From Pseudopedobacter saltans DSM 12145 (GTDB lineage: Bacteria > Bacteroidota > Bacteroidia > Sphingobacteriales > Sphingobacteriaceae), in NCBI RefSeq assembly GCF_000190735.1, contig NC_015177.1:3658001-3722000 (forward strand): 64,000 nucleotides of DNA. The letters are read 5' to 3'. The translations under genes were made by a program, and so were the position numbers. This document shows, in pieces, positions 17,161 through 34,207 of this stretch. The notes below the pieces were generated by a model. It was given only the letters and a program-made list of their open reading frames with translations. It was not told the DNA's origin and did no database searches. The first letter of the stretch is position 1. The number at the start of each line of letters is the position of its first letter.

Positions 17161-18507
17161 ATGTTTGACAATCTACAGGAAAAGCTCGAAGGGGCGTTTA
17201 AGGTTTTAAAAGGACAAGGAAGCATTACCGAGATTAACGTGGCCGAAACGATGAAAGAGATTAGAAAAGCTCTTTTAGATGCAGACGTTAACTATAAAAC
17301 AGCTAAATCTTTTACTGATGAAGTTAAGCAAAAGGCCTTAGGTCAGAATGTATTGACCGCCATTTCTCCAGGCCAGTTGCTAACCAAGGTCATGAACGAT
17401 GAGCTTACCCTTTTAATGGGTGGTTCTGTTACCGAATTAGATTTAAAACAAAATCCAACTATTATATTAATTGCAGGATTAAATGGTGCTGGTAAAACAA
17501 CTTTTACAGGTAAGTTAGCCAACTTTTTAAAAACGCAAAAAAATAAAAAACCTTTATTAGTTGCAGGCGACGTTTACCGCCCGGCCGCGATTGACCAATT
17601 GGAAGTCCTTGCAGGACAAGTGGGTGCAGAAGTTTATACCAATAGAGAATCTAAAGATCCTGTTGCTATTGCTTTAGAGGGTATTGCCCATGGAAAGCAA
17701 AATGGAAACAATGTAATTATCATCGATACGGCGGGTCGTTTAACTTTAGACGATGCTTTAATGGATGAGATTGCAGAGGTTAAAAAGGCAACCAACCCGC
17801 AGGAGATTCTATTTGTTGTAGATGCAATGACCGGTCAGGATGCGGTAAATACAGCGAAAGCATTTAATGACCGGTTGGATTTTACCGGAGTTGTGTTAAC
17901 TAAATTGGATGGTGATACACGCGGGGGAGCGGCTTTGTCAATCAAATCGGTAGTTAACAAGCCAATTAAGTTTGTTGGTACCGGCGAGAAAATGGATGCA
18001 TTGGATGTATTCTACCCGGACAGGATGGCATCCCGTATCCTCGGAATGGGAGACGTAGTTTCTTTGGTAGAAAGAGCTCAACAACAGTTTGACGAGAAAA
18101 AAGCTGCCGAACTACAAAAGAAGATCAGGAAGAATAAATTTGATTTTAACGACTTCTTAGGTCAGATTCAGCAGATCAAAAAAATGGGTAACATCAAAGA
18201 TTTGATGGGAATGATTCCGGGTGTTGGCAAAATGATGAAAAATATAGAAGTGGACGATAACGCTTTTAAAGGAATTGAAGCTATTATCCATTCTATGACA
18301 CCTTATGAGCGAGAAAACCCGGACACGATTAATCCAAGCAGAAGGCAAAGAATAGCTAAAGGTTCAGGAACAGATATCGCGGAAGTAAACAAGTTGATTA
18401 AGCAGTTTGAGGATATGAGAAAAGTGATGAAACAGTTCTCAGACCCATCAGCTATGGCAAAAATGCAAAGAATGATGAAGAATATGCCAGGAGGAATGGG
18501 CAGATAG
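17161..18507 (+). CDS. ffh: Signal recognition particle GTPase Ffh (SRP54)
   Basis: A 448-residue protein that, with 4.5S RNA, delivers nascent membrane proteins to FtsY. The N domain is at 1-90; the G domain has G1 GLNGAGKTTFTGKLA, G2/G3 DVYRPAAIDQL and DTAGR, and G4 TKLDGDTRGG. The methionine-rich M domain follows from about residue 325, with the RNA-binding helix-turn-helix RRQRIAKGSGTDIAEVNKL and a C-terminal MAKMQRMMKNMPGGMG. Full length and intact. It stands alone between a promoter and a terminator. Confidence 0.97.
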   Translation: MFDNLQEKLEGAFKVLKGQGSITEINVAETMKEIRKALLDADVNYKTAKSFTDEVKQKALGQNVLTAISPGQLLTKVMNDELTLLMGGSVTELDLKQNPTIILIAGLNGAGKTTFTGKLANFLKTQKNKKPLLVAGDVYRPAAIDQLEVLAGQVGAEVYTNRESKDPVAIALEGIAHGKQNGNNVIIIDTAGRLTLDDALMDEIAEVKKATNPQEILFVVDAMTGQDAVNTAKAFNDRLDFTGVVLTKLDGDTRGGAALSIKSVVNKPIKFVGTGEKMDALDVFYPDRMASRILGMGDVVSLVERAQQQFDEKKAAELQKKIRKNKFDFNDFLGQIQQIKKMGNIKDLMGMIPGVGKMMKNIEVDDNAFKGIEAIIHSMTPYERENPDTINPSRRQRIAKGSGTDIAEVNKLIKQFEDMRKVMKQFSDPSAMAKMQRMMKNMPGGMGR

Positions 18508-18527
18508 TCCTTTATTGACAGAATATG

Positions 18528-18565
18528 AAAGCCTCTCTGATTATAATGTCAGAGAGGCTTTTTTG
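18528..18565 (+). terminator. Intrinsic terminator after ffh
   Basis: AAAGCCTCTCTGA (18528-18540) pairs perfectly with TCAGAGAGGCTTT (18549-18561), loop of 8 nt, followed by T residues. Confidence 0.88.
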
Positions 18566-18736
18566 ATAAGTCTAAAGTATTTTGATAGGAGTGACTTCTG
18601 TCTGCTTAGGATAGTTTTTTTGAGGTTTCTCACCTGAGAAAAAATGTACTACATTTATGCCGATATAAGCATAACTTTAAACCGGCACTGTTTATATTTA
18701 CTTGGCATTCCTATTTAATATTAAGGCGAAATTGAT

Positions 18737-19294
18737 TTGAACTCATTAAAGCATATTTTCGATAATGTTTTTAAAAGAAAGTCTAGTGATGAGCATTCTT
18801 TCAGAATATTTGTAAATACGTATCAAGACAAAGTTTTCCGTTTTATTTCATTATTTGTTAAAGACAGTCATGTATGTGAAGAACTAATGTCGGATGTGTT
18901 TTTTTCTTTGTGGAATAAACGAGAACAATTAGAGGAGGTGGAGAATCTGGAGAGCTATGTTTTTATAATAGCTAAAAATAAAGCACTTAATTTTCTGCGT
19001 AAAAAGAAGATGGAATTGTCTAATATTAATGATGTTGATATAGATTTATTTTATAATACCACTACTAATCCAGAATCTATATATATAAGCCAAGAGACTA
19101 TTGTAGCCTTAAATAAAGCTATAGAGGAACTGCCTACTAAAACTAAACTTGCTTTTCTTATGATTCGTGAAAATGAGATGAAATATAAAGATGCTGCCGA
19201 GGTTTTGGGAGTCTCTGTAAAGACATTAGAAAAGCAGGTTGCGGCAGCAGTAGCTAAGCTGAAGGAAGCATTACAAAATAACAAAGACTTATAG
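18737..19294 (+). CDS. RNA polymerase ECF sigma factor (Bacteroidetes FecI-like)
   Basis: A 185-residue ECF sigma factor of the Bacteroidetes expansion family. Region 2 covers about 20-95 (FRIFVNTYQDKVFRFI, then CEELMSDVFFSLW and LESYVFIIAKNKALNFLRK). Region 4 covers about 128-180 (ELPTKTKLAFLMIRE, KYKDAAEVLGVSVKTLEKQV). No ATG fits; it appears to start at a TTG at 18737, with AAGGCGAA upstream. It should be held by the FecR at 21977 and direct RNA polymerase to this locus. Unusually, two genes lie between it and fecR. Confidence 0.9.
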   Translation: MNSLKHIFDNVFKRKSSDEHSFRIFVNTYQDKVFRFISLFVKDSHVCEELMSDVFFSLWNKREQLEEVENLESYVFIIAKNKALNFLRKKKMELSNINDVDIDLFYNTTTNPESIYISQETIVALNKAIEELPTKTKLAFLMIRENEMKYKDAAEVLGVSVKTLEKQVAAAVAKLKEALQNNKDL

Positions 19295-19332
19295 CAGGAA
19301 TGTAAAGGAATCTTTTTCTTTTTTAGTTTATG

Positions 19333-19360
19333 GGGGATTATCCCTCAACAGGTGTCTTTA
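19333..19360 (+). promoter_or_regulatory. Putative ECF-sigma promoter, copy 1
   Basis: GGGGATT at 19333-19339, 14 nt, GTCTTTA at 19354-19360, 31 nt before the hydrolase ATG. It matches two other sites in this locus in both boxes and spacing. The GTC at the -10 position is what ECF/FecI-type sigma factors usually read. Assignment to the sigma at 18737 is inference. Confidence 0.7.
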
Positions 19361-19390
19361 GCAGCATAAACTAAATCATTAAAATCAAAC

Positions 19391-20314
19391 ATGAAAAAGA
19401 TTACGCTAATGTTTTTTGCGACTGTCTTAGTTAATTCTATCGCTCAAGCTCAAAAGGGGGAAGAGATCGCTTTATATGCCCAAGTACCGGGAGCTATAAA
19501 TTCTGACAGTTACAAAGAACAAACAGAGACGGTTATAAACGTACATCCTGTACTATGGACAACTAAGGTGTCTAAACCAAGTTTAACTTATTTCAAAGCG
19601 GCTAATTCATCTAAAACGGATGCTGCTGTGATTATTTGTCCGGGAGGAGGCTATGGAGGATTAGCTATCAGTCATGAAGGATATGATGTGGCTGCAAAAT
19701 TTGCAGAAATGGGCGTTTCTGCATTTGTATTAAAATATCGCTTACCAAGTGATGAAATCATGATGGATAGAAAGATTGGACCATTGCAAGACGCACAACA
19801 AGCTATAAAGTATGTTCGTGAAAATGCATTTAAGTATGGTATAAACCCAAATAAGATAGGAATTATGGGGTTCTCTGCCGGTGGTCATTTAGCTTCTACA
19901 GCCTCAACTCATTTCAAGAGAGAATGTGTAGAAAATAAAAAACACACTAGTTTGCGTCCTGATTTTTCCATTCTCATGTATCCTGTAATCACTTTTTGGG
20001 AAAATACGCATATAGGGTCTAGAGAAAATCTAATCGGAAAAAATCCCCCTCAAGAACTAATTGATTTGTATTCTAATGAAAAGCAAGTGACAAAAGAAAC
20101 CCCTATAACATTCATTATTCACTCTAATGACGATGATGTTGTTCCTATAGAAAACGCTTTCGGTTATATAAGGGCACTAAACAATTTTGGAGTGAAAAAT
20201 GAAGCTCATATATATGCTTTAGGAGGCCATGGCTATGGATTGGATTTTAAAAGAGTGAATGATGTCTGGTTTGATAGGTTGACTAACTGGATGAAAAACA
20301 ATGACTTATTGTAG
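19391..20314 (+). CDS. Exported alpha/beta hydrolase, acetyl-xylan-esterase-like
   Basis: A 307-residue exported esterase-like enzyme. A signal peptide (ends IAQAQ) precedes an alpha/beta hydrolase fold with the oxyanion segment CPGGGYGGLAISHEGYDVA, the nucleophile elbow GIMGFSAGGHLAST, the acid in IIHSNDDDVVP and the His in LGGHGYGL. Relatives deacetylate plant or microbial glycans and are common in polysaccharide loci. It lies behind its own copy of the GGGGATT-N14-GTCTTTA promoter and probably removes ester groups so the glycosidases downstream can act. The actual substrate is unknown. Confidence 0.82.
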   Translation: MKKITLMFFATVLVNSIAQAQKGEEIALYAQVPGAINSDSYKEQTETVINVHPVLWTTKVSKPSLTYFKAANSSKTDAAVIICPGGGYGGLAISHEGYDVAAKFAEMGVSAFVLKYRLPSDEIMMDRKIGPLQDAQQAIKYVRENAFKYGINPNKIGIMGFSAGGHLASTASTHFKRECVENKKHTSLRPDFSILMYPVITFWENTHIGSRENLIGKNPPQELIDLYSNEKQVTKETPITFIIHSNDDDVVPIENAFGYIRALNNFGVKNEAHIYALGGHGYGLDFKRVNDVWFDRLTNWMKNNDLL

Positions 20315-20362
20315 GTGTGTGAAGAGAATTAAAGTTATTCTTTTTTATTTTAAAACTTGATG

Positions 20363-20390
20363 GGGGATTATTAAAAATCTGGTGTCTTTA
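20363..20390 (+). promoter_or_regulatory. Putative ECF-sigma promoter, copy 2
   Basis: GGGGATT at 20363-20369, 14 nt, GTCTTTA at 20384-20390. It precedes the lipoprotein gene by about 180 nt, leaving an unusually long leader. Confidence 0.7.
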
Positions 20391-20396
20391 GTATAA

Positions 20397-20569
20397 GAAA
20401 ACACACAGAAAATATGATGAAAAATAACCAAAAAGTATAACCTGAAATCAAAATGAATTTTGAAAGATTTTTTTGTTTTATCAACTCATAACAGTTGATG
20501 AATAGGGATTTCTATGTTCAAATAAAATGAAAAAATTTTAAATAAAGTTAACCAATAAAAAATGTAAAC
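20397..20569 (+). other. Long 5' leader of the lipoprotein gene
   Basis: About 170 nt between promoter copy 2 and the ATG at 20570. It holds an 8-codon frame (ATG ATG AAA AAT AAC CAA ... TAA from 20414) whose opening resembles that of the real gene, and a small hairpin TCAACT...AGTTGA at 20481-20498. It could be a regulatory leader or the residue of a duplicated gene start. Confidence 0.35.
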
Positions 20570-21907
20570 ATGAAAAATCAATTATTACTAACATGTGTTA
20601 TAATGCTCTTTGTTCTAGGGTGTAAAAAATCAGACAATGATGGCGGATCGTCTGTAGATTTAAAAATCGAAACCGCTGCAGTTTCTAATTTAACAGCAGT
20701 AAGTGTTAAGACTGGAGGTGTAATATCGGGTTCAGAACCGATAAATGAAAGAGGGGTTTGTTGGGGGGCTGAAAATAATCCTACCGTGGAAGGCGGTAAA
20801 TTTGTTGCGGATATAGACGTTGCAACAGGAGAATATTCTGTTAAAATAAAAGATTTAGACCCAGAAAAAGTTTACTATGTGAGGGCTTATGCAAAGACAA
20901 AATCAGGTAAAACAGTTTATGGAAAGACGCTAGAAATAGCTACAAAAACACTAACCGCTTTAGCAGAATCAAATAGTTATTTGACAGTTTTTGACGATGC
21001 GTTAGTAATACCGGTATCAAGAGCGAACAAAACCTCTTTAGGAACACAAATATCATCGACAGAAACCTTAACAGCAGAACTATTGTGGATGGATAATTAT
21101 GACGTTATTGATGATGTAAAAATTGTTGGTACAGGTGCTTCTGCCAAAGTCGTTGTTTCAGCAGGAAATGTAAATGGTAATGCTGTGGTAGCTGTAAAAA
21201 ACGCAAGTAATGAAATAAAATGGTCTTGGCATATCTGGGTAGTAGAAGATTTAAAAGCAATAGGCACGATTACATTGCCTTCTGGAGCCAAAATTATGGA
21301 CAGAAATTTAGGAGCCATTAACAAAAACCCTGAAGATGCAGGTGCAATAGGTTTACAATATCAATTCGGCCGTAAGGATCCATTTACTGCTTCTACTAGT
21401 TTTGGTACCCCAAGTGAGGTTTTGCTAATTGACTTGGCAGGGAAAAATCCGGCTTTTCAATTTGAGGCCGGACCTAAAACGCTTGCTTATTCCATAAAAA
21501 AACCGCTATCATTTATTAAAAGTGCAGGTGTTGATTGGGAAGAAAACGGAAGCACTTTATTTTGGACTAATGATTTAGGTACAAAAACTGTTTATGACCC
21601 TTGTCCGCTAGGTTATAAAGTGCCTGCCAAGGAAATTACGGAAGGCTTAGAAAAAACGCATTTTAATACAGCTCAAAACGGAGGATTTCTGTTTTTATAT
21701 AATAATCAAAATAATATTTTTCCATATACCGGTTATCGTGAAGCTAACGGAAGTTTAGATGCCACAGCTTTTTCTGGTAATTTGTGGTTTAATAGTTCGT
21801 TAGAAGGTTTTGCTTTTTTAACAACCTATCAAAATGGAGCAGTATATCAAATTAATGGATCTCCGAGAGCTAGAGCGATGTGTATACGTTGTATAGAGGA
21901 TAAATAA
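20570..21907 (+). CDS. Surface lipoprotein with fibronectin-like N-terminus
   Basis: A 445-residue lipoprotein: signal ending in VLGCKKSDNDGG (Cys18 plus acidic residues, a surface-export-like signal of Bacteroidetes). Residues 30-130 form a beta sandwich with INERGVCWGAENNPTVEGGKF and VYYVRAYAKTKSGKTVYG, typical of the repeats found in Bacteroides surface proteins. The C-terminal half (WSWHIWV, IMDRNLGA, GLQYQFGRKDPF, YDPCPLGYKVP, TGYREANGSL) matches the Bacteroidetes family of large surface lipoproteins sometimes called major paralogous domain. It is probably a glycan-binding or adhesin-type accessory of the locus. Confidence 0.72.
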   Translation: MKNQLLLTCVIMLFVLGCKKSDNDGGSSVDLKIETAAVSNLTAVSVKTGGVISGSEPINERGVCWGAENNPTVEGGKFVADIDVATGEYSVKIKDLDPEKVYYVRAYAKTKSGKTVYGKTLEIATKTLTALAESNSYLTVFDDALVIPVSRANKTSLGTQISSTETLTAELLWMDNYDVIDDVKIVGTGASAKVVVSAGNVNGNAVVAVKNASNEIKWSWHIWVVEDLKAIGTITLPSGAKIMDRNLGAINKNPEDAGAIGLQYQFGRKDPFTASTSFGTPSEVLLIDLAGKNPAFQFEAGPKTLAYSIKKPLSFIKSAGVDWEENGSTLFWTNDLGTKTVYDPCPLGYKVPAKEITEGLEKTHFNTAQNGGFLFLYNNQNNIFPYTGYREANGSLDATAFSGNLWFNSSLEGFAFLTTYQNGAVYQINGSPRARAMCIRCIEDK

Positions 21908-21920
21908 AATGTGTAAATTA

Positions 21921-21948
21921 GGGGATTGGTTATAAGCTCGAGTCTTTA
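21921..21948 (+). promoter_or_regulatory. Putative ECF-sigma promoter, copy 3
   Basis: GGGGATT at 21921-21927, 14 nt, GTCTTTA at 21942-21948, 28 nt before the fecR ATG. It argues against the longer fecR frame that would begin inside this element. Confidence 0.7.
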
Positions 21949-21976
21949 TAAAAAGAAGTGTTGTTTTTTAATTGTT

Positions 21977-22948
21977 ATGGAAGATCGATTTTCGGTATTG
22001 GTTTCAAAAGTACTTTCTGAGGAAGTTTCAGAAAAGGAAAAGGAAGAGTTTTTTCAAATTCTTTCTCAGAATCCTGATTATAATTTAAGATATAATCAAC
22101 TAAAAGAATACTGGAATGCCGATATTCAATATCATGCAATTGAGAAGAGAGAACAAGTTGGAGATCGAATAATGGAAAGAATAAAGTCTGCCAGTACTGT
22201 AACTACAGTTAGATTGAGTTCTTTGAGAATTATTGCTGCTGCTGCTATTTTGTTCTTTATAACCACTTCGGCATTAATACTGTATATAGTAGAAAATAAC
22301 TCTTCATCAAGAAATGCGTTTACTTATGCTGCTCAAACTATACCCGTTGAATATCTTTTAACAGATGGTTCTAAGGTGACATTGAATAAAAATAGTTCTA
22401 TTACAATAGATTCTGATTTTGGTGATAAATATAGAAATGTGAAGTTGGAAGGGGAAGCTTATTTTTCTGTATCCAAAGATAAGTATCGGCCATTTGTGGT
22501 CGAGACTAAAGGAACTAAAACTAAGGTATTAGGAACAAGTTTCAATGTTAAATCGAAAGATCACAATGTGATTACAACTTTAGTGGAAGGATCCATATTA
22601 TTTACATCAAATAATTGTGAAAAGATTCTTCGTCCTAATGAGGAGCTAAGGTATAATGTAGAAACATTTGAATATGAGAAATATAATTGCGATGTTCAAT
22701 TAAATACGGCATGGGTTTCTGGGAGATTTAATTATTCAGGAATTTCATTTGAAACATTAGTCAATAAGCTTGAAGTTATCTATAATAAGAAAATTAATAT
22801 AAGGGATAGCAAATTGGCAAATCATATAGTTTCTGCTTCTTTTTTGGTTGATGAACCATTAGAGAATATTCTTGATGCTTTAAAAGGAGAGTTGAAGTTT
22901 AGCTATGTTACTGATGATGCTAATCATATACGAATTATGAGCAAATAA
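21977..22948 (+). CDS. FecR-family anti-sigma factor
   Basis: A 323-residue single-pass inner-membrane protein. Residues 1-80 are the cytoplasmic sigma-binding part, about 83-104 the membrane helix (RIIAAAAILFFITTSALILYIV), followed by the periplasmic FecR domain (VEYLLTDGSKVTLNKNSSI, VKLEGEAYFSVSKD, FVVETKGTKTKVLGTSFNVKS) and the C-terminal DUF4974-type domain (FNYSGISFETLVNKLEVIYNKKI). It should hold the ECF sigma until SusC's signalling domain contacts it. The start at 21977 is chosen because an upstream TTG frame lies inside a promoter-like element. Confidence 0.92.
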   Translation: MEDRFSVLVSKVLSEEVSEKEKEEFFQILSQNPDYNLRYNQLKEYWNADIQYHAIEKREQVGDRIMERIKSASTVTTVRLSSLRIIAAAAILFFITTSALILYIVENNSSSRNAFTYAAQTIPVEYLLTDGSKVTLNKNSSITIDSDFGDKYRNVKLEGEAYFSVSKDKYRPFVVETKGTKTKVLGTSFNVKSKDHNVITTLVEGSILFTSNNCEKILRPNEELRYNVETFEYEKYNCDVQLNTAWVSGRFNYSGISFETLVNKLEVIYNKKINIRDSKLANHIVSASFLVDEPLENILDALKGELKFSYVTDDANHIRIMSK

Positions 22949-22953
22949 TAAAG

Positions 22954-22978
22954 AGCTTTTTATTATAAAAGCCTTTAA
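22954..22978 (+). terminator. Weak hairpin between fecR and susC
   Basis: GCTTTT (22955-22960) pairs with AAAAGC (22967-22972), followed by CTTT. The 6-bp stem is weak, so it may only reduce read-through from the fecR promoter into susC, which has no GGGGATT-N14-GTCTTTA site of its own. Confidence 0.35.
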
Positions 22979-23110
22979 AATCAACCTTAAAATTTCATAC
23001 TAAATTAATCGCTAGTCTCTAGTGTTTGAATTGTGTTTTTGCACAAAATGGGAGCGATTTGCTCTAAATTTTCTATAGAAAGTGATTAAATATTACCCTA
23101 AATAAATTTT

Positions 23111-26100
23111 ATGAAAAAAAGCATTGTCAATAGTTTTAAACAGACAATTATGCAATTAGGCCTGTTTGTCTGCTTGTTGTTTCTGCATCTAACGGATGTT
23201 CAGGCTCAGGCAGGGGCAACAAAGTTGAGAGCGAGTATCCAACTGAATAATGTTACCGTTCAACAGCTGGTTGATAGATTGGGAAAGGATTTTAAATATT
23301 CTTTTTTCATTTTGGATGATCAGGTAAGTAAAACACGAGTTACTGTAAATAAAAGTAATGCCACAATCAATGAAATTCTGGACGAGGCTTTCCGTTCAAA
23401 AGAGATTACTTACCAGATTCAAGCGAAGAATATAATCATATCAAAGAAAAAAACAACTAGCAGTGTCTCTGATACTGAAAAGCTGATTTCTATAAAAGGA
23501 ACTGTTATGGATGCTAACCAGCAACCAATAATTGGAGCTATCATAGAGGTACAAAACAGAAAACAAAAAGCAATTTCTGATATAGATGGTAAATTTAGTA
23601 TAGAGGTTCCAGAAAAAGGACAAATACTGGTTTCTGCTATGGGCTATAAAATGCAAGTTCTTACCCTTTCAGGAATTTCTGCCTACAAAATTGTTTTAGA
23701 AGAAGAGGTTCATGCTTTGGAGGAACTGGTTGTTGTTGGCTATGGAACTCAAAAAAGGGCCAATCTTACGGGATCTGTTTCTACTTTAAAGACTGAAAAT
23801 TTAACTATTGCCCCGATTACAAATGTTACAAATGCATTAACGGGGCAATTACCTGGACTTAGAACTAAGCAAACTTCTGGAATTCCGGGATCTGATGGTT
23901 CGCAATTAAGTATTAGAGGATTTAGTAGTCCTTTAGTTATTGTAGATGGGGTTGAAACTAATTTTGACAATATTGATGCTTCCCAGATAGAATCAATATC
24001 TATTCTAAAAGATGGTGCTGCTTCTGTTTATGGTGCAAGAGCTGGAAATGGAGTTATACTGGTGACTTTAAAAAGAGGAAAAGAAGGAAAAGTAACCGTT
24101 ATAGCAAATGCTTCTCAGACCATGCAGAATTCCACCGCATTGATTGCTACGGGAAGTTCAGGACAACGGGCAGAATGGGAACGTGAGGCGCATATAAATG
24201 CAGGTTTACCCGCATCGCAAATTCCCTGGAAGTTGTCAGACATTGAAGAGTTTTATTCAGGGACGAACCCTAATTATTTAAATACAGACTGGTTTTCTGC
24301 TGCAATAAGATCTTGGGCTCCACAGCAAAATCATAATATTTCCGTAAGTGGTGGAAGTGATAAAGTAAACTTTTATTCTTACGTAGGTTATAATAAACAA
24401 ACAACGATTGCCAGAAAGGATGGCGGAGCTTATGATCGTATAAACACTCAGACAAGTCTTGATGCTAAATTAACAGATAGGTTATTATTGTCTTCAAGTT
24501 TCAACTACATAGGTGAACTTAGAGACTTTACCTCTATGAATCTAGGTCACTCTAATTTTTACAATTCTTTATATGAAAGTGATCCTAAGTATCCTTTAAC
24601 CTTACCAGATCCGACTATGTTGTCTTATGCAGGAACTTCCACTGGAAATGCTGTTTTTGTATCTAATAAAGGATTGGCAGGTTATAGTAGGAATACGAAT
24701 AAAAGCCTGAGACTTAATTCTGCTTTGACTTATGAGTTTAAAAGTATCGAAGGGCTTAAGGCAAAAGCTTTTATAAATTATAATAGCGGTACAGGTTTTT
24801 CAAAACTTTTTAGAAAACAACCAAACTTTTATTCTTACAGGGCGGCTACCGATGAATATATTTTTGAAAGGAAGTCTGCTAACCCAACAATGCTTTATTT
24901 AGGATCGTATAATTCCAGTGATATTACCCAACAATATTCTTTTACTTATGATAGGGTATTCAACAATGACCATCGATTTTCGGGTATGTTGCTTCATGAA
25001 AGAATAAATTATAATAATGAAAGTTTTGATACACAGCGAGGTAATTTGGCTTCGGAAGTAATTGATCAGCTTTTTGTTGGCGATCCTAACACTGCGTCAA
25101 ATAATGGGTCTGCTTCTGAAATGGCCAGAAAAAGCTATGTTGGGCGTTTTAACTACGGTTATAAAGGAAAATATTTAATTGAAACAATATTTAGGGCGGA
25201 TGCGTCTGCAAAATTTCCTAAAGATGGAAGATGGGGGTATTTTCCGAGTGTTTCAGTAGGTTGGGTATTGTCTAAAGAAAAGTTCCTGGAGAACTCAACC
25301 AAAGTAGACAACTTGAAGCTAAGAGCAAGTGCCGGACAATCTGGCGATGATGGGATTGGTAACTACCAATATTACGCAGGATATTCTTATGACATGTCCT
25401 ACATTTTAGGAGATGAAATAAAGCAGGGACTTTATTTGACCGGCTTGGCAAATCCAAACCTTTCTTGGGAAAAATTAGGAATATATAACGTGGGTTTAGA
25501 TTTTTCCCTTTTTAATAGCGGAATTTATGGTACGGTAGAGGGGTTTTACCGTTTAAGAGAAGGTATACCCGGATATCGGGTTAATTCTGTGCCATCAAGT
25601 TTTGGAGCGGCCTTACCTCTGGAAAACATGAATAGCATAGATACAAGAGGATTTGAGTTTGAATTGGGAACGAAGGGGAAAATTAATCAGGTGTCATATG
25701 ATATTTCTGGAAATATTTCTTGGGCCAGAAGCAAATGGGTGAAGTATGATGAACCCGATTATGTAGATGCTGATATTAAAAGGATTAATGGTGTACAAGG
25801 TAAATGGACAGATGAAAGATGGGGCTATGTTTCAGATGGGTTATTTACGTCGATGGATGAAATCAGAGCTTTGCCATATACTTATGTTGACCTGGGAGGT
25901 AATGACGGTATCCGTCCTGGGGACGTAAAATATGTAGACCTTAATGGAGATGGTAAGCTTGATTGGAAAGACAGGATCGAAATAGGTAAAGGCACAGTCC
26001 CAAATTGGATGGCGGGTCTGTTATTTAATGTTTCATATAAAAGCCTCCATTTAAATAGTGTTTTTCAAGGAGCTTGGGGCTATACTACTTACATAGATTT

Positions 26101-26461
26101 AGAGACGGCTCCAACAACTCTTAAATATGACAACAGGTGGACTAGCGAAAAAAACAACTCGGATGCATTAGTTCCAAGGCCTGGAAGTAAAAATGTTGCC
26201 AATTGGTGGTATTCAGACTATAGAAATCATAATACAAGATATTTAAGATTAAGAAGTCTCTCTTTAGGCTATGAGTTTAATGATAGAATACTAAAGTCAT
26301 TAAAGATGAGTAAACTACGGGTTTATGCGGCAGGAAGTAACCTTTTTACAATAACAAATTTATCTAAGTTGGGTGTCGATCCGGAAGCACCGGAAGGAAG
26401 CGCAGCATATTATTATCCACAGCAAAGAACTGTTAGCATAGGTCTAAGTTTAAATTATTAG
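23111..26461 (+). CDS. SusC-family TonB-dependent outer-membrane receptor with STN domain
   Basis: A 1116-residue glycan importer. The signal peptide ends near VQAQA; residues about 33-105 form an STN domain (IQLNNVTVQQLVDRLGKDFKYSF), which signals to FecR. A carboxypeptidase-like domain follows (ISIKGTVMDANQQPIIGAII), then the SusC motif LEELVVVGYGTQKRANLTGSV that begins the plug, with ILKDGAASVYGARAGNGVILVTLK, and the beta barrel ending in TVSIGLSLNY. It imports oligosaccharides with SusD at TonB's expense and reports their presence. It is 15 nt from susD. Confidence 0.95.
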   Translation: MKKSIVNSFKQTIMQLGLFVCLLFLHLTDVQAQAGATKLRASIQLNNVTVQQLVDRLGKDFKYSFFILDDQVSKTRVTVNKSNATINEILDEAFRSKEITYQIQAKNIIISKKKTTSSVSDTEKLISIKGTVMDANQQPIIGAIIEVQNRKQKAISDIDGKFSIEVPEKGQILVSAMGYKMQVLTLSGISAYKIVLEEEVHALEELVVVGYGTQKRANLTGSVSTLKTENLTIAPITNVTNALTGQLPGLRTKQTSGIPGSDGSQLSIRGFSSPLVIVDGVETNFDNIDASQIESISILKDGAASVYGARAGNGVILVTLKRGKEGKVTVIANASQTMQNSTALIATGSSGQRAEWEREAHINAGLPASQIPWKLSDIEEFYSGTNPNYLNTDWFSAAIRSWAPQQNHNISVSGGSDKVNFYSYVGYNKQTTIARKDGGAYDRINTQTSLDAKLTDRLLLSSSFNYIGELRDFTSMNLGHSNFYNSLYESDPKYPLTLPDPTMLSYAGTSTGNAVFVSNKGLAGYSRNTNKSLRLNSALTYEFKSIEGLKAKAFINYNSGTGFSKLFRKQPNFYSYRAATDEYIFERKSANPTMLYLGSYNSSDITQQYSFTYDRVFNNDHRFSGMLLHERINYNNESFDTQRGNLASEVIDQLFVGDPNTASNNGSASEMARKSYVGRFNYGYKGKYLIETIFRADASAKFPKDGRWGYFPSVSVGWVLSKEKFLENSTKVDNLKLRASAGQSGDDGIGNYQYYAGYSYDMSYILGDEIKQGLYLTGLANPNLSWEKLGIYNVGLDFSLFNSGIYGTVEGFYRLREGIPGYRVNSVPSSFGAALPLENMNSIDTRGFEFELGTKGKINQVSYDISGNISWARSKWVKYDEPDYVDADIKRINGVQGKWTDERWGYVSDGLFTSMDEIRALPYTYVDLGGNDGIRPGDVKYVDLNGDGKLDWKDRIEIGKGTVPNWMAGLLFNVSYKSLHLNSVFQGAWGYTTYIDLETAPTTLKYDNRWTSEKNNSDALVPRPGSKNVANWWYSDYRNHNTRYLRLRSLSLGYEFNDRILKSLKMSKLRVYAAGSNLFTITNLSKLGVDPEAPEGSAAYYYPQQRTVSIGLSLNY

Positions 26462-26476
26462 TACAACAGATTAGAT

Positions 26477-28387
26477 ATGAAAAAGATATATATTGTAATT
26501 GTCTTATTTGGGACTTTATTTAGTTCATGTAAAGATGATTTATTGGATAAAGCTCCTCTTGATAGATTTACAGACGCAGTAGTATGGAAAGATCCAGCCT
26601 TAATAGATGCATTCTTACTATCTCAATATGCATATACTCCGGTAATGATAAACGATGCTACAACAGTATTTACGAGTTGGGAAGGATCACCTTCAAATAG
26701 AGATCCTCGTAGTGGAAACCTGAGATACTGGTTTGGAAATAGTGCTCAGACATTTGGTCCGGGATTGTCTATTGAGATTAGCGATGAAGCAAAATATACT
26801 TCTGGAGCGTGGACGAATGTTTTAGCAGAAAAAATATTTGGTATATCTGCAGAGGGAGGTGTTATGGAATGGTGGGAAAACTCTTACTATACAATAAGAA
26901 ACCTTAATGAATTTATTGAGAGAGTTCCCTCTTCGCCTTTGAGTGAAAGAAATAAAGCTATTAGAGTCGCCGAAGCTAGATTTTTGAGAGCATTCTGTTA
27001 TTTCGCTATGGTTAAGCGGTATGGGGGAGTTCCTTTGTTAACCACAGTACCTCAGTTAGATTCGCCAGAAGATTTATTGTATCCTAAACGAAACACAGAG
27101 CAAGAATTATGGGACTTTATTCTTAGTGAGACTAAAGAGATTTCTGAAATCTTACCTTCCGTCCAGGATGAATATGGTAGAGCGAATAAATGGGCCGCAT
27201 TATCTTTACATGCTAGAGCCGCGCTGTTTGCAGGAAGTATAGCAAAATATGGAACATTAAATGCCAATAAATTAACAGGGTTACCATCAAATTTATCTCA
27301 ATCTTATTTCCAAAAAGCTTATGATGCATCTAAATCTATAATCGAAGATTCTCCTTATAGGTTGTATACTGAAGATGTTAGAGGAAATGATTTAGAAGGT
27401 AGAGTACAAAATTTCAAGAATATTTTTCTTAAAAAGAGGAATTCTGAAATCATTATGGCTAAACAGCATGGCGGAAAAAGTTTTGATCCGGGAGGTGGGA
27501 CAAGTACATGGTCTTGGGATATTTGTCATGCACCTCGACCGTCTGTTTGGGGACAAGGGAATTATCAAGCACCTTATTTAGAATTAATCGAAGCCTTTGA
27601 TTATATAGATGGCACTTCTGGAACACTTGATAGAAACTATGTTCAATCGAGATTATGGACTATGGGTGAATTATGGAAAAATAGAGACCCTAGATTTTAT
27701 GCTTCTATATGGACTAATGGAACGCCATGGAGAGATGCTGTTGCAAGTAATTTTGGTAAGGATACTATAAACTTTCATCATGGTCTAATTACTGAAAACG
27801 GGACATTGCTTACAAATTTTACAGCGTCTTATAAGGGGATGCCGGCAGTTGGCGATCAATCTTATTTTCATGCTTCTACGGGTATTTCTAATACAGGTTT
27901 TGGTATTATGAAGTATTTAGATCCCTCTGCAGATAATATGGTTTGGCTAATGGAGTCCCGGACTGACTATGCGATCTTTAGATTAGGCGAAACCTATCTG
28001 AATTTTGCGGAAGCAGCATATGAATTGTCTAAAGTCAATGATGCATTAACGGCAGTTAATGAAATTAGATCCAGAGCAGGTGTGCAACAGCTTTCTTCTA
28101 TTACTATGGATAAAATTCGTAAAGAAAGACAGGTAGAGTTGGCCTTTGAAAATCATAGGTATTGGGACTTAAGAAGATGGCGTCAGGCAGAAACAAAATT
28201 AAGCAGATCGTTTAGTGGAATTCAATATGTTTTAGACTATAGCACAAAAAAATATAAGGTTCTGATACATGATAAAATTGACGGGGAAGTAGATCCTATG
28301 TTTCCTGCCAGAAATTATTATTTCCCAATAACTGTTACCAGAAGAGGGCAAAATAAAAATTTAGAGGAGAATCCAGGTTATAACTAG
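26477..28387 (+). CDS. SusD-family glycan-binding lipoprotein
   Basis: A 636-residue surface lipoprotein that caps SusC. The signal ends in LFSSCKDDLLDKAPLDRFTD, with the lipobox Cys and the conserved LD.xP opening of SusD/RagB. The TPR-like core includes VAEARFLRAFCYFAMVKRYGGVPLLTT, typical of the family, and the C-terminal part includes NEIRSRAGVQQL, IRKERQVELAFENHRYWDLRRWR and FPARNYYFPIT. It binds the target oligosaccharide and feeds it to SusC. At over 600 residues it is on the long side for SusD proteins. Confidence 0.94.
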   Translation: MKKIYIVIVLFGTLFSSCKDDLLDKAPLDRFTDAVVWKDPALIDAFLLSQYAYTPVMINDATTVFTSWEGSPSNRDPRSGNLRYWFGNSAQTFGPGLSIEISDEAKYTSGAWTNVLAEKIFGISAEGGVMEWWENSYYTIRNLNEFIERVPSSPLSERNKAIRVAEARFLRAFCYFAMVKRYGGVPLLTTVPQLDSPEDLLYPKRNTEQELWDFILSETKEISEILPSVQDEYGRANKWAALSLHARAALFAGSIAKYGTLNANKLTGLPSNLSQSYFQKAYDASKSIIEDSPYRLYTEDVRGNDLEGRVQNFKNIFLKKRNSEIIMAKQHGGKSFDPGGGTSTWSWDICHAPRPSVWGQGNYQAPYLELIEAFDYIDGTSGTLDRNYVQSRLWTMGELWKNRDPRFYASIWTNGTPWRDAVASNFGKDTINFHHGLITENGTLLTNFTASYKGMPAVGDQSYFHASTGISNTGFGIMKYLDPSADNMVWLMESRTDYAIFRLGETYLNFAEAAYELSKVNDALTAVNEIRSRAGVQQLSSITMDKIRKERQVELAFENHRYWDLRRWRQAETKLSRSFSGIQYVLDYSTKKYKVLIHDKIDGEVDPMFPARNYYFPITVTRRGQNKNLEENPGYN

Positions 28388-28393
28388 AATAAA

Positions 28394-30013
28394 ATGATGA
28401 AGCATAAAATAAAGTTATTAGTCTTTTTTTATTTCTGCAGTATACTGTGGGTATTTGGAGCAAAAGACAGGTTAAATATTATACCCTACCCAAATAAGGT
28501 ACAAATATATGAGGGTTTTTGTGACCTTTCTAAAGGGGTTAACGTTGTTGGAGGTGAATTGATTAAAAAACAAACTTACTCTTCTTTAGAACATGATTTT
28601 GGGATTTTACAGAATAAGAGCGGTATTAAATTATCCTTCCTAATATCTCCAGAAATAACCAATAAAGAGGGATATGTTTTAAATATAGATTATAACGCTA
28701 TAAATATAAAAGCCTCAAGTAAAGAAGGTCATTTTTATGCTTTGCAAACATTGAAACAGCTTGTTTCTAATAAAAAATTACCTCGAGTAGAAATTATTGA
28801 TGAGCCGCGGTTTTCTTGGAGGTCCTTTATGTTGGATGAAGCGAGATATTTTCACGGGAAAAAAGTTGTTAAGAATTTGTTAGATGAAATGGCGGCTTTA
28901 AAGATGAACACGTTTCATTGGCATTTAACAGATGATGCGGGTTGGAGAATTGACATTAAAAAATATCCTTTATTAACTAAAATTGGAGCTAAGAGAGATA
29001 GTACACAAATTGAAGACCCAACGCTGCAAGTGCCGGGAGAAACAGGAGATCCAGCATATGATGAGTTTCTTAGAAGGTATCAAAGTAATAAATTTGACGG
29101 AAAACTTCATCAAGGATATTATAGTCATAGCGACATTAAAGAAATAGTTGCTTATGCAAGAGATAGAGGTATTCAAATAATCCCAGAAATTAGTATGCCA
29201 GGACACGCTTCCGCGGCGATAGCGGCTTATCCGTGGCTAGGGACACTTGATCAAAAAATCAAAGTGCCTACCCGTTTTGGAGTTATGGAAAATGTTTTTG
29301 ACCCATCATCAAAGAAAACCATTCAATTTTTTAAAGATGTACTTGCAGAAGTTAGTTCGCTTTTTCCGGCACCATATATTCATATAGGAGGGGACGAAGT
29401 AAAACATAATCAATGGAAAGCCTCAGAAAACATCACCAAATACATGACGGAAAATAATTTGAAAAATTATAAAGATGTTCAAGTGAAGTTTACCAATGAG
29501 ATAAGTGATTACGTTGAGAAAGAGCTAGGGAAAAGTATTATCGGGTGGAGCGAAATATTGGGCGTAGATACACACGTTTGGCAAAAGGATACAGGGAAAG
29601 TAACTCAGCAATTGTCAAAAAATGCCATTGTTCAGTTTTGGTCAGGGAATAAGGATATTTTAAAATATGCTTTAGACAATAACTATAAAGTTGTCAATTC
29701 TTATCATGAAGATACCTATCTGAACTATTCTTACGATCAGTTACCGCTTAAAAAATCTTATTCACTTCAAGTGGTTCCGCAAGGATATGAAAGATCTTCA
29801 GTAATTGGGTTAGGCTGTCAATTATGGACAGAATGGATTTCAGATATGGCAGCAATTCAGTATCATATATTTCCAAGAATAGCAGCTTATGCTGAGTTAG
29901 GCTGGACAAAGGAAGAATATAGGTCTTATGACAGGTTTTTGCTTAATCTTAAGCCTCTTGTGAACAAATGGAAAGAAAAAGGATATAATCTTCCTGAAAA
30001 TGAGTTTAATTAA
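28394..30013 (+). CDS. Beta-N-acetylhexosaminidase (GH20)
   Basis: A 539-residue exported exo-hexosaminidase that removes terminal GlcNAc or GalNAc by substrate-assisted catalysis. After the signal peptide there is the GH20b domain (IIPYPNKVQIYEGFC to about 135), then the catalytic barrel from SWRSFMLDEARYFHGKKVVK. The NTFHWHLTDDAGWRIDIKKYPLLTKIGA block and the catalytic pair Asp334-Glu335 in HIGGDEVKHNQW are intact. It is 6 nt behind susD and so belongs to the same operon; it indicates a target glycan with N-acetylhexosamine. Confidence 0.94.
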   Translation: MMKHKIKLLVFFYFCSILWVFGAKDRLNIIPYPNKVQIYEGFCDLSKGVNVVGGELIKKQTYSSLEHDFGILQNKSGIKLSFLISPEITNKEGYVLNIDYNAINIKASSKEGHFYALQTLKQLVSNKKLPRVEIIDEPRFSWRSFMLDEARYFHGKKVVKNLLDEMAALKMNTFHWHLTDDAGWRIDIKKYPLLTKIGAKRDSTQIEDPTLQVPGETGDPAYDEFLRRYQSNKFDGKLHQGYYSHSDIKEIVAYARDRGIQIIPEISMPGHASAAIAAYPWLGTLDQKIKVPTRFGVMENVFDPSSKKTIQFFKDVLAEVSSLFPAPYIHIGGDEVKHNQWKASENITKYMTENNLKNYKDVQVKFTNEISDYVEKELGKSIIGWSEILGVDTHVWQKDTGKVTQQLSKNAIVQFWSGNKDILKYALDNNYKVVNSYHEDTYLNYSYDQLPLKKSYSLQVVPQGYERSSVIGLGCQLWTEWISDMAAIQYHIFPRIAAYAELGWTKEEYRSYDRFLLNLKPLVNKWKEKGYNLPENEFN

Positions 30014-30039
30014 TTTGAAAATACTTAAGTATAGATAGT

Positions 30040-31356
30040 ATGAAGGCTTTATTAATGGTAATCATGTTAAGTGCGATGCAGGTTCTTTCTGCATGTAAAA
30101 AAAATGCTGAAGGATCTAAAGATGATAACGGCGGCACAACAACAGAGAACAAGTATGATATCTTAAATATTAACGAAATAGCGATAGGCTTATGGGTTAC
30201 CCCCCCTGCCAATAATCAGACTAGTGACGAATATAAAAGGATAAAGGATTGCGGGATAAATTTTGTAAATGGTTTTTATCATTACGAAAACAGCAACAGT
30301 AGAATTTTAAATGTGTTAGACCATTGTCAAACTCATGGACTAAAATATTTCGCTAATAGAGCAACCGTTACTGATGATATAAAAAAATATGCTCAAAATC
30401 CAGACGCGGCTTTATTAACAAAATTTACAAATGGAATAAAGCCCTATGCTAATCATCCCGCTTTTGTAGGAGAACTATTAATGGATGAGCCAGGAAAACC
30501 GCTTTTTAATGCTGTTGAAGCATTTGCTTCCGCCTTAAAGAAAACTTATCCTGATAAACTTTGGCATGTTAATTTACTCCCATCTTATGCAACCGGCGGA
30601 ATTCAAACATCCAGTTATGCAGACTATATCAACTCATGGATGCAGACAATGTCTCCACATTATTTGTCTTATGATAGCTATCCTTTATTAACAGACGGTA
30701 CAATAGCCAAAGACTATTATTCTAATTTGGATTTTATCAGAGCAAAATCAAGATTCAAGGAAATTCCTTTTTGGACATTTGTTCAAACCCTGTCTATCTC
30801 AGGAACGCCAGGAGTACCGGATAAGAGAGAGCCAAGCGAAGCAGATATCCGTTGGCAGGTATGGTCAAATCTCGCTTTTGGAGCCAAAGGAATACAATAT
30901 TTTTGTTATTGGTCACCCGGTAGCGGTAGTGAAAATTTTGGAGAAGCTTTGATTGGTTTAAACGGAGAAAAAACAGTTCGTTATGATTATGTAAAGAAAT
31001 TGAATTCGGATATCAATGCCATTGGAAAAATCTTGCTGAACTGTCATGCAGAGGGTGTAATCCAAACAGCTGTTAAGCCATATAATATGTATGAGCCTTT
31101 ATCTGAATTTGGGGAAGTTGTTGCGGTATCTGGCGACGATAATGTTGTTGGCTGTTTTAAATCCAAAGAAGGAAAGAATAAAGTTTTAATAACGACATTA
31201 AATCCAGACAAAGCGGCAAATGTAACACTGTCTCTTAAAAATACGGTTGGTAAAGTAAAGGTTTGGAGAAATAATGTATCAACAGAAGAGGTGCCTGCTA
31301 ACAATAAACTTAATTTTTCAATAAAAGCAGGAGATGCGGTTTTTGTAGAGTTTTAG
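30040..31356 (+). CDS. Probable TIM-barrel glycoside hydrolase lipoprotein, family not assigned
   Basis: A 438-residue lipoprotein (signal ending in VLSACKKNAEG). The central part looks like a beta/alpha barrel: IAIGLWVTPPANNQTSDEY at the start, then HPAFVGELLMDEPG around residue 150, where the Glu/Asp pair sits at a barrel strand end like the acid/base of clan GH-A enzymes, then LSYDSYPLL and a late WSNLAFGAKGIQYFCYWSPG. The C-terminal 90 residues form a beta sandwich. It resembles GH42-like and other uncharacterised Bacteroidetes glycosidases without matching a family I can name. Operon position between GH20 and GH78 supports a role on the same glycan. Confidence 0.6.
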   Translation: MKALLMVIMLSAMQVLSACKKNAEGSKDDNGGTTTENKYDILNINEIAIGLWVTPPANNQTSDEYKRIKDCGINFVNGFYHYENSNSRILNVLDHCQTHGLKYFANRATVTDDIKKYAQNPDAALLTKFTNGIKPYANHPAFVGELLMDEPGKPLFNAVEAFASALKKTYPDKLWHVNLLPSYATGGIQTSSYADYINSWMQTMSPHYLSYDSYPLLTDGTIAKDYYSNLDFIRAKSRFKEIPFWTFVQTLSISGTPGVPDKREPSEADIRWQVWSNLAFGAKGIQYFCYWSPGSGSENFGEALIGLNGEKTVRYDYVKKLNSDINAIGKILLNCHAEGVIQTAVKPYNMYEPLSEFGEVVAVSGDDNVVGCFKSKEGKNKVLITTLNPDKAANVTLSLKNTVGKVKVWRNNVSTEEVPANNKLNFSIKAGDAVFVEF

Positions 31357-31402
31357 ACTTCATTATTAATCTTTGTTTAGTTATAATGTCAATTTAAAAA
31401 AT

Positions 31403-34207
31403 ATGAAGAATATACATAGGCATATTTTTTTAATGCCTTTGATAATATTATTATGCGTAGTAGAGGCTTTTTCTCAGCAAAAAACAGGGTCTATTAAACC
31501 TGTTCAACTTCGATGCGAATATCTCGAAAATCCTTTAGGATTAGATTTAGAAAAGCCTCGTCTAAGCTGGGTTTTACAACCTGTTCGAGATACCGAGTAT
31601 GGTCAAATGCAAACTGCATATAGAATAATTGTAGCGTCAAGTGTAGATTTATTAGAAAAATCTCAGGGTGATGTTTGGGATACAAAATGGGTAACATCGG
31701 ATCAAATGCAGCTTATTGATTATTCAGGAAAAGCCCTTGTTTCAGATCGTACTTATTTTTGGAAAGTAAAAGTTAAGGACGAAAAAGGCAGAGAATCTGC
31801 TTGGAGTGATCTGGCCTTTTGGAGTACTGGTTTGTTTGATCAAAAAGATTGGTCTGCAAAATGGATTGGAAGTGATGAACTGTACGATAAATCTTCGTCT
31901 ACAAACAATATATCTGATCCATGGTTTCGTAAATCTTTCGAATTAAATAAAAAACCGGGGAAAGCATCTTTATTTGTGGCTTCTGTTGGTTATCATGAAG
32001 TTTATGTAAACGGAGAGCGTATTGGAGATCATGTTTTAGCGCCAGCGGTCTCTAATCATACCAAAAGAGCGAGATATATTGCGTATGATATTGCAGATAA
32101 ACTTGTAAAAGGTAAAAATGTAATTGCTGTTTGGTTGGGCACATCCTGGTCTATATTTCCCGGATACATTTTAAACGATGACCGTCCGCTTACTCCAATA
32201 GTAAAAGCACAGGTTGCTGTTTATGAAGAAAGCAATCCATCGTTTAACATAAGGCCTATTACCCGTATTTCTACTGATGAGACCTGGAAAACTAAACCAA
32301 GTCCTAATAAATTGTTGGGTAAATGGGACTTTAAGCGAATGGGTGGCGAGATTTGGGATGCCAGACTTGAAGATAAATCATGGAACCAAATAAAATGTGA
32401 TGAAAGTAAGTGGAAGCCGTCAATTGTATATCCAACTAAACTCATATTATCTTCTCAAGCCGTAGAACATAATAGAGTTTTTGAAGAAATAAAACCGGTT
32501 AACATAAAAAAAAGAAAAGACGGTTCTTATAGAGTAGACATGGGAGTAAACTTCGCCGGATGGACTCAGGTAAATGTGAGCGGAACTCCGGGAGATACCA
32601 TTAAATTTCAATACTCAGAAAGAGAGCAAAATAACATGACCTTTGGTTTGCATAGTGCCTATGTGCTTAATCAAAGCGGAACGGGAACTTTTACAAACCG
32701 TTTTAACTATAGTTCTGGTAGATGGATTACTGTTAAAGGGTTGAAAAAAGAATTGACAGCTGAAGATGTTAAAGGATGGATGGTGCGAACGGACTTTAAG
32801 AACGCATCCAGTTTTCAAAGTTCAGACACTTTGCAAAATTGGATGTATGATCGTATAAAATGGACTTTCGAAAATCTCTCATTAGGCGGTTTTATTGTAG
32901 ATTGTCCACAGCGAGAAAGAATGGGCTACGGAGGAGATGCGCATGCAACCAGCGAAACGGGGATGTTTAATTATCAAATGGGCGCATTTTACACCAAATG
33001 GATGGAAGACTGGAGAGATGTGCAGGGAACAGAGTCTATGGTTGGAGATATGCTTGATACCAGTTATGCAAGAAAGCATGTTACAAGTGGCAGAATCTTG
33101 AATAATGGTGTAATACCTCATACAGCACCAACTATTTGGGGAGGTGGAGGACCAGCGTGGGGTGGTATCGTGATTACTTTGCCATGGTTTATGTATCAAC
33201 ATTATGGTGATATTCAAGTTTTGGAAAAGAACTTTGAAATGATGAAAGGCTGGCTGTCATTTTTAGACACCCATGTAGAAGGAAATTTGATGAGAAGATT
33301 TGGAGGAGAATGGGATTTTCTGGGAGATTGGTTATGGCCTAATGCTACAGCAGAGGGAATGAATAATGACTCGCCCCAGAATCTATGCTTAAACAACTCT
33401 TATTACATTTTCAATTTGCGAACTGCGGCAAAAGTAGCTCGGCTTATAGGTAAGAACGATGATGCGGCTATTTGGGAGAAAAAAGCGGAGTTATCGTCAA
33501 AAGCTGTTAATGAAATGTTTTATAATAAAAACGATTATAGCTATTCTGATGGTACTATGTCAAATCTTGCTGCGGCATTATTGGCAGAAGTTCCTCCTAA
33601 AGAATTGAGAGAGAAAGTGCTTAAACGCCTAGAAAAAGAAATTCTTGAGGTTAGAAAAGGCCATATTCATGCGGGAATTACAGGAGGTGCGCTATTGTTT
33701 AAATTGTTGAGAGATGAAGGCAGAGATGATCTTATTTATTCTATAACTTCAAAGAAAACATATCCAAGTTGGGGTTATATGAAAGATAACGATGCGACTA
33801 CAATTTGGGAAATGTGGGAAAAGGACTTGCCAGGGCATTCTTTATTGCACAGTTCGTATTTATATCCGGGAGCATGGTTTATTGATGGGATTGGTGGAAT
33901 TAGAAGGCATCCTGATTATGTCGGTTTTAAGCATTTTATAATAAGACCACCAGCTTATCAGGCAACTGAAATTAAGAGCGCTCAAACTAAGTTTGAATCT
34001 CCTGTGGGAGGTATTGAAGTTAATTGGGAGAGAATTGGAAAACAATTATCATTGGAGGTTGTGGTACCTCCTAATAGTGTTGGGGTATTACAGTTAAAAC
34101 CTCAGGATATTATTGATATAAGTAAATATAAAACGGTTAAGAAATTACCTAATACGGGAGATTTGCTACAATATGAAATTTTACCGGGTAAATATAGTTT
34201 TAAATAA
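31403..34207 (+). CDS. Alpha-L-rhamnosidase (GH78)
   Basis: A 934-residue exported enzyme that releases terminal alpha-L-rhamnose. Order: signal peptide, the N-terminal beta domain LRCEYLENPLGLDLEKPRLSWVL typical of GH78, the carbohydrate-binding beta sandwiches (LFVASVGYHEVYVNGERIGDHVLAPA), the pre-barrel MGVNFAGWTQVNVSGTPGD, then the alpha/alpha barrel with DCPQRERMGYGGDAHA from Asp500 and, later, TIWEMWEKDLPGHSLLHSSYLYPG. The ATG at 31403 is preferred to a TTG 30 nt earlier. It is the last gene of the locus, directly before a strong terminator. Confidence 0.93.
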   Translation: MKNIHRHIFLMPLIILLCVVEAFSQQKTGSIKPVQLRCEYLENPLGLDLEKPRLSWVLQPVRDTEYGQMQTAYRIIVASSVDLLEKSQGDVWDTKWVTSDQMQLIDYSGKALVSDRTYFWKVKVKDEKGRESAWSDLAFWSTGLFDQKDWSAKWIGSDELYDKSSSTNNISDPWFRKSFELNKKPGKASLFVASVGYHEVYVNGERIGDHVLAPAVSNHTKRARYIAYDIADKLVKGKNVIAVWLGTSWSIFPGYILNDDRPLTPIVKAQVAVYEESNPSFNIRPITRISTDETWKTKPSPNKLLGKWDFKRMGGEIWDARLEDKSWNQIKCDESKWKPSIVYPTKLILSSQAVEHNRVFEEIKPVNIKKRKDGSYRVDMGVNFAGWTQVNVSGTPGDTIKFQYSEREQNNMTFGLHSAYVLNQSGTGTFTNRFNYSSGRWITVKGLKKELTAEDVKGWMVRTDFKNASSFQSSDTLQNWMYDRIKWTFENLSLGGFIVDCPQRERMGYGGDAHATSETGMFNYQMGAFYTKWMEDWRDVQGTESMVGDMLDTSYARKHVTSGRILNNGVIPHTAPTIWGGGGPAWGGIVITLPWFMYQHYGDIQVLEKNFEMMKGWLSFLDTHVEGNLMRRFGGEWDFLGDWLWPNATAEGMNNDSPQNLCLNNSYYIFNLRTAAKVARLIGKNDDAAIWEKKAELSSKAVNEMFYNKNDYSYSDGTMSNLAAALLAEVPPKELREKVLKRLEKEILEVRKGHIHAGITGGALLFKLLRDEGRDDLIYSITSKKTYPSWGYMKDNDATTIWEMWEKDLPGHSLLHSSYLYPGAWFIDGIGGIRRHPDYVGFKHFIIRPPAYQATEIKSAQTKFESPVGGIEVNWERIGKQLSLEVVVPPNSVGVLQLKPQDIIDISKYKTVKKLPNTGDLLQYEILPGKYSFK

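Follow-up and report, generated by a model that had tools for sequence, protein, structure and literature searches.

Three identical two-box sites in a sugar-uptake locus of Pseudopedobacter saltans are probable promoters of the locally encoded FecR-type ECF σ factor

The sequence GGGGATT-N14-GTCTTTA occurs three times, always on the plus strand and between genes, in a glycan locus of Pseudopedobacter saltans DSM 12145 (19333–19360, 20363–20390, and 21921–21948, here sites 1, 2, and 3; positions refer to the window, the whole 64,000-nucleotide stretch of contig NC_015177.1 that was analysed). We consider it probable, at roughly 85%, that these sites are promoters of the FecR-type ECF σ factor encoded at 18737–19294. 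Two boxes with a fixed 14-nt spacer lie ahead of three genes in the locus of this σ factor. The first-pass annotation had called them very probably its promoter, and this reading gains support from copies ahead of fecR in relatives and from the recurrence of the geometry in an independent collection of regions upstream of fecR. That the local σ factor is the one reading the sites we infer from linkage and orthology.

By its predicted products the locus is a FecI/FecR-type signalling system combined with a sugar-uptake cluster, with all genes on the plus strand. The ECF σ factor gene (185 amino acids, TTG start as listed; Pfam Sigma70_r2 and Sigma70_r4_2) is followed by an esterase/hydrolase gene of the BD-FAE family at 19391–20314 (Pfam BD-FAE, 1.5e-24), a lipoprotein-like gene at 20570–21907 (no Pfam family at 0.001), fecR at 21977–22948 (anti-σ/σ regulator; Pfam FecR and FecR_C), a gene for a SusC-like TonB-dependent receptor with an STN domain at 23111–26461 (Pfam STN, CarbopepD_reg_2, and Plug), a susD-like gene at 26477–28387 (Pfam SusD_RagB), and GH20, GH42-like, and GH78 genes at 28394–30013, 30040–31356, and 31373–34207 (assigned by Pfam). 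The Pfam families agree with the earlier description of a locus opened by an ECF σ gene and continued by an anti-σ gene and an STN-type susC, and the FecI/FecR gene set of ECF σ gene, fecR, and STN-domain receptor is found together in this one locus. Among the proteins scanned with Pfam, there was no other regulator gene between the σ gene and the GH78 gene. The fecR open reading frame had been listed with a start at 21926, a TTG within site 3; the ATG at 21977 is the most likely start, as the alignment with both relatives discussed below then begins at the first residue of the protein.

Intergenic gaps from susC to the GH78 gene measure 6–26 nt. The gap between fecR and susC is 162 nt, and read-through from site 3 into susCD is therefore presumed. 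Two terminator-like stems lie in this gap (22949–23110; fold z score −1.43), and by eye short hairpin-like inverted repeats seem to recur in the fecR–susC gaps of loci L094, L095, L097, L098, L099, and L102. Antisense RNAs occur at such fecR–susC places. Transfer may have brought the locus into the genome, since its closest relatives found lie in a Paludibacter MAG and in a genome from a different family, no protein in 399 family genomes matches the lipoprotein over its full length apart from itself (the next best being a 34% partial match), and the G+C content of positions 18507–34207 is 35.4%, compared with 36.8% in the rest of the window.

An exact scan bore out the earlier observation that the three sites share both boxes base for base at the same spacing. 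The argument that such a thrice-repeated spacing is not expected by chance also held, as the mean number of exact copies in 100 dinucleotide shuffles was 0.00. In a search blind to the motif, covering all gapped words of the form 7+N(8–20)+7, GGGGATT-N14-GTCTTTA was the sole word of the window present three times within 5 kb, and each of 20 shuffles of the window contained none. The genome scan proposed in the annotation placed every exact match in the glycan locus: across 4,635,236 bases and spacings of 12–16 nt there were three matches, against none for the reversed pattern. With N14 and up to two mismatches, 37 matches were obtained (three exact, none with one mismatch, and 34 with two) versus 60 for the reversed control, so that all matches beyond the three exact ones are attributable to chance. 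Upstream of the σ factor gene no copy was found even at three or fewer mismatches; thus, the σ factor seems not to drive its own gene via this motif. A simple σ70 scan was uninformative (14 sites versus 20.2 in shuffles).

As described in the annotation, each site lies ahead of a gene of the locus, ending 30 nt (esterase), 179 nt (lipoprotein), or 28 nt (fecR) before the next ATG. The spacers between the boxes are not conserved among the sites. The further statement that nothing else nearby is conserved is correct for site 3 but not for sites 1 and 2, which additionally share ATG before GGGG, AT after GGGGATT, GGT before GTCTTTA, and G after it; site 3 is without these extra bases. Sites 1 and 2 may have arisen by copying. 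They would serve two genes located between the σ gene and fecR that are not so placed in the relatives, while site 3 occupies the position of the single copy found in each relative. Downstream of site 2 (20391–20569), the first ATG, about 23 nt on, opens a reading frame of just 8 codons (by eye), for which a leader ORF or a gene remnant is a suggested reading.

The two closest relatives found of the σ factor are 64% identical (locus L054 of the Paludibacter MAG, the sole related locus returned from the genome contigs) and 68% identical over 161 residues (genome G1031, from another family of the same class). In L054, the σ gene and fecR are 66 nt apart, and between them, at 28 nt from the fecR ATG, lies GGGGAAA-N14-GTCTTTA, a match quality reached in 73 of 200,000 single-base shuffles of the 66-nt gap. 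In the whole 16-kb stretch a match with three or fewer mismatches is expected by chance (mean 1.68); the improbable event is so good a match within the gap. In G1031 (locus L088/L092), GGGGCTT-N14-GTCTTTA lies 29 nt before fecR in a 205-nt σ–fecR gap, and the match was reached in one of 60,000 shuffles of that gap. Thus, the candidate promoter is conserved beside the orthologous σ gene in both closest relatives found, with 12 or 13 of 14 letters matching, 28–29 nt before fecR; the spacing is 14 nt in all five copies seen. Genome-wide, GGGG-N17-GTCTTTA occurs once in the L054 genome (control 1) and twice in G1031 (control 0), and for this reason position rather than rarity is the evidence in the relatives.

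The identities of L054 to the window are 65% for SusC, 75% for the sequenced part of SusD, 51% for the lipoprotein (a 445-residue protein in L054), and 48% for FecR. In L092 of G1031, the σ factor (68%) and FecR (50%) are conserved and SusC is only 33% identical, which implies that σ factor, FecR, and promoter are shared but the receptor is not; an exchange of the receptor, with the switch and its promoter retained, seems to have taken place. A region-4 stretch, SVKT(L/I)EKQVA, is common to the three σ factors accompanied by the site and is missing in the 15 others aligned (the alignment contained no σ match of L093, and no σ factor was found in L098). Region 4 of σ factors reads the −35 box.

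Searches for further σ relatives returned 3 of 295 genomes of the class (threshold 1e-30), 5 of 393 genomes of the order of G503 (1e-35; G1031 among them), 2 of 13 genomes of the family of G1031 (1e-35), and 2 of 395 genomes of the phylum (1e-38), own and repeated genomes being included in each count. Among these sampled genomes there was no further σ relative above 47% identity, and the more distant relatives (33–43% over the alignment; L105–L109) are without the exact motif. Ahead of both the σ gene and fecR, L105 and L107 (σ factors 43% and 35% identical) carry a pair of the AAGGGTTT...TGCGACTA type with GGG-N17-GAC geometry, a placement that, in contrast to the window, suggests that these σ factors regulate their own genes. 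As a family-wide signal the exact motif was rejected: 18 of 201 family genomes (own included) have a match, and outside this genome 20 matches compare with 23 for the reversed control, so the exact pattern is at chance level elsewhere in the family.

A looser form of the motif was found ahead of other fecR genes. In a first set of 20 fecR genes, which were taken from this genome and its relatives and include three loci already discussed, GGG-Nx-GTC was present in seven (x = 17), six (x = 18), two (x = 19), and one (x = 10), a run of four G counting at two spacings, and in none at other spacings from 8 to 25. The prediction was then fixed before testing on an independent set of 117 regions upstream of fecR, which came from 48 other genomes of 20 families. 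These were drawn from the best 150 FecR matches by E-value, a selection that favours strong FecR domains; 13 matches of this genome, five others (four from G1079/G1083 and one close to the end of its contig), and the 12 at the bottom of the list were left out, and three near-duplicates were removed from the 120 regions fetched. The region used was −160 to +90, where the prediction had foreseen −150 to +60. GGG-Nx-GTC occurred in 13 (x = 17), 14 (x = 18), and 8 (x = 19) of the 117 regions and in 0–3 at other spacings, while mirrored and reverse-complement patterns were flat (0–4 and 1–5). With all pairs of 3-mers at spacings 8–26, GGT-N15-TGT and GGG-N16-TGT came out on top with 25 regions each (means over spacings 4.2 and 4.8); they have the same geometry as the window sites. 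The top 25 pairs also include some unrelated to the motif, such as CGA-N13-GAA. TGTCTT was present near the fecR start in 19 regions, and its 29 permutations in at most nine.

Fitting a motif to the independent set gave the consensus AGGGTA, a gap, and TGTCTTAT; the median distance between the fitted block and the longest fecR start was 20 nt. The 56 of 117 regions scored positive by this fit were not used as evidence, because the same fit also scored many control regions positive (117 on the reverse complement, 117 on the reversed set, 32 to 117 in eight shuffles, and 93 on the stretch just upstream). Since, moreover, the total likelihood was 240 for the reverse complement and 311 for the upstream stretch versus 211 for the real set, the fit evidently drifts to other signals. 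In its place we relied on the fixed-pattern scan, the permutation count, and a scan leaving out one family at a time. The latter found 20 regions at a score of 14 (against 0 for the reverse complement, 1 for the reversed set, and 0.4 for shuffles) and 27 at a score of 12 (4, 4, and 2.2 in the same order), and was weak at the low cut-off of 8 (51 versus 31, 29, and 22.2). The strong general motif is thus present in only 20 of 117 regions; some of the related clusters of the phylum, but not all, have a signal built on this plan ahead of fecR. A CTAC-like second −35 class, suspected from inspection of this genome by eye, found no support in the independent set.

The general model, fitted without this genome, was applied to both strands of the window. 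The promoter-like sites 1 and 2 jointly scored highest of all positions (16.9 each; next 15.8), and site 3, likewise promoter-like, did not stand out (11.9). In L054 and L092, the site ahead of fecR has the highest score of its stretch (18.5 and 13.3). The genome holds 13 FecR matches. Among its 12 other FecR loci, L103 has its site at rank 1 (22.9; GGGGTAAT...GGTGTCTTAA) and L096 at rank 2 (15.6), the rank-2 match of L104 falls inside the gene, and the remaining nine have ranks from 16 to 388; thus, only some of the fecR loci come under the general motif. This result, the low score of site 3, and the 179-nt distance of site 2 from its gene count against the promoter reading. The L103 site (near base 2,662,414 of the genome, minus strand) reads GGGGTAA-N14-GTCTTAA, differing in 4 of 14 letters from the window motif; it precedes a small ORF just ahead of fecR and has the top score in its 13 kb. 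A relaxed pattern, GGGG-N16..18-GTCTTW, occurs in the genome at chance level (23 matches, control 29), though one match is this L103 locus.

A genome with so many FecR matches invites the question whether the sites, while being ECF promoters, respond fully or in part to some other FecR-linked σ factor. L103 follows the same plan, and in Bacteroides thetaiotaomicron an ECF σ factor regulates a distant sugar locus (PMC12596196). We nevertheless regard such cross-talk as unlikely in P. saltans: the exact letters are confined to this locus and are kept beside the closest relatives of the local σ factor, and the L103 σ factor is only 22% identical to it. Still less likely is that the sites bind a transcription factor, such as a hybrid two-component regulator or a repressor, with the true promoters nearby. 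Repeated sites ahead of several genes of one locus do have the look of operators, but the boxes are not repeats of each other, the unit is directional, and its spacing is invariant in every copy. This geometry also recurs ahead of fecR in other genomes, where reversed and reverse-complement controls are flat, and among the proteins scanned with Pfam there was no other candidate regulator within the locus.

Least credible of all is that the three copies are a coincidence, part of a repeat element, or an element acting at the RNA level. The bases shared by sites 1 and 2 beyond the boxes are what duplicated DNA would leave; however, the spacers are not conserved, the shuffles yielded no such word, and the site is conserved in the σ–fecR gaps of two other genomes. 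As to RNA, no Rfam family reached the gathering score in the 20 kb searched, and the leaders fold no better than shuffles.

Taking the sites as promoters of the local σ factor, we propose that GGGGATT would act as the −35 and GTCTTTA as the −10 element, read by RNA polymerase carrying the σ factor encoded at 18737–19294, with transcription predicted to start a few bases past each −10 box. FecR would hold the σ factor in check until glycan uptake by the STN-bearing SusC sends a signal through FecR that frees or activates it, a sequence of events suggested by the gene set. The output would comprise the esterase, the lipoprotein, and fecR, together with the susC–susD–glycosidase genes behind it if transcription reads through.

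This arrangement resembles the FecI/FecR/FecA system of E. coli, where an ECF σ gene also lies beside fecR, the receptor is of the STN type, and the promoter of the linked σ factor is not, in the text available, ahead of the σ gene itself; there, the σ and regulator genes are under another σ factor (PMC9249621). Unlike fec, with one target promoter before fecA and iron as its subject, the glycan locus has three sites, one of them before fecR; the comparison is one of arrangement and not of the letters of the fecA promoter. The order of σ, anti-σ, SusC/SusD, and hydrolase genes resembles that of Bacteroides sugar loci under ECF σ/anti-σ control such as PUL24 (BT1877/BT1876), in which a start site without a housekeeping promoter was mapped (PMC11501099). 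Coupling of SusC uptake to the anti-σ factor, freeing the σ factor, is described for Bacteroides (PMC11501099). The PUL24 start before the SusC gene, however, lies in the 3′ part of the anti-σ gene and not ahead of it, where site 3 lies here, and the available portion of that paper gives no promoter motif for comparison with the window sites (PMC11501099). PUL24 retains basal expression without its own σ factor (PMC11501099); given this and the B. thetaiotaomicron σ factor that acts at a distance (PMC12596196), the local σ–promoter pair need not be the whole story.

Short −10 elements rich in G, T, and C have been proposed for ECF σ factors elsewhere in the phylum (PMC12596196, PMC7366714, PMC9723704). 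In B. thetaiotaomicron a TGTT element near −10 (PM2) is tied to two ECF σ factors, the motif being non-significant for one (PMC12596196), and in Flavobacterium psychrophilum a CGT −10 motif (SM6) is given (PMC9723704). In the parts of these papers available, both are tied to oxidative stress or type IX secretion genes, and their likeness to the window sites concerns the −10 element and not the −35/−30 boxes. According to a 2020 paper, none of the ECF σ factors of B. thetaiotaomicron had a known recognition motif, while EcfO of B. fragilis had one (PMC7366714). Our literature search, which drew on partial texts and had the main ECF motif catalogue outside the comparison, found no report of this motif for a fecR-linked Bacteroidota σ factor.

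Many ECF σ factors of Bacteroidota are tied to sugar uptake, and the locus offers a concrete candidate σ–promoter pair, with three copies here and one more next to the σ gene of each of the two closest relatives found. Although its exact letters are private to the locus, the motif appears to be a local form of a more widespread promoter plan linked to fecR, and the general motif can be tested for part of the fecR-linked loci. If this reading is right, sequence alone could serve to predict regulons, and the construction of insulated switches for these bacteria would come within reach. Tentatively, and at slightly less than even odds, we extend this to FecR-type ECF σ factors of Bacteroidota at large: they may follow one plan, with a G-rich −35 box (GGGTA or GGGG), a fixed gap, and a TGTC-type −10 box shortly before fecR, on which each σ factor has private letters that close its regulon to its own locus. 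If this is true, the many such σ factors of one genome would act as switches insulated from one another, and the σ–fecR gap would reveal their promoters.
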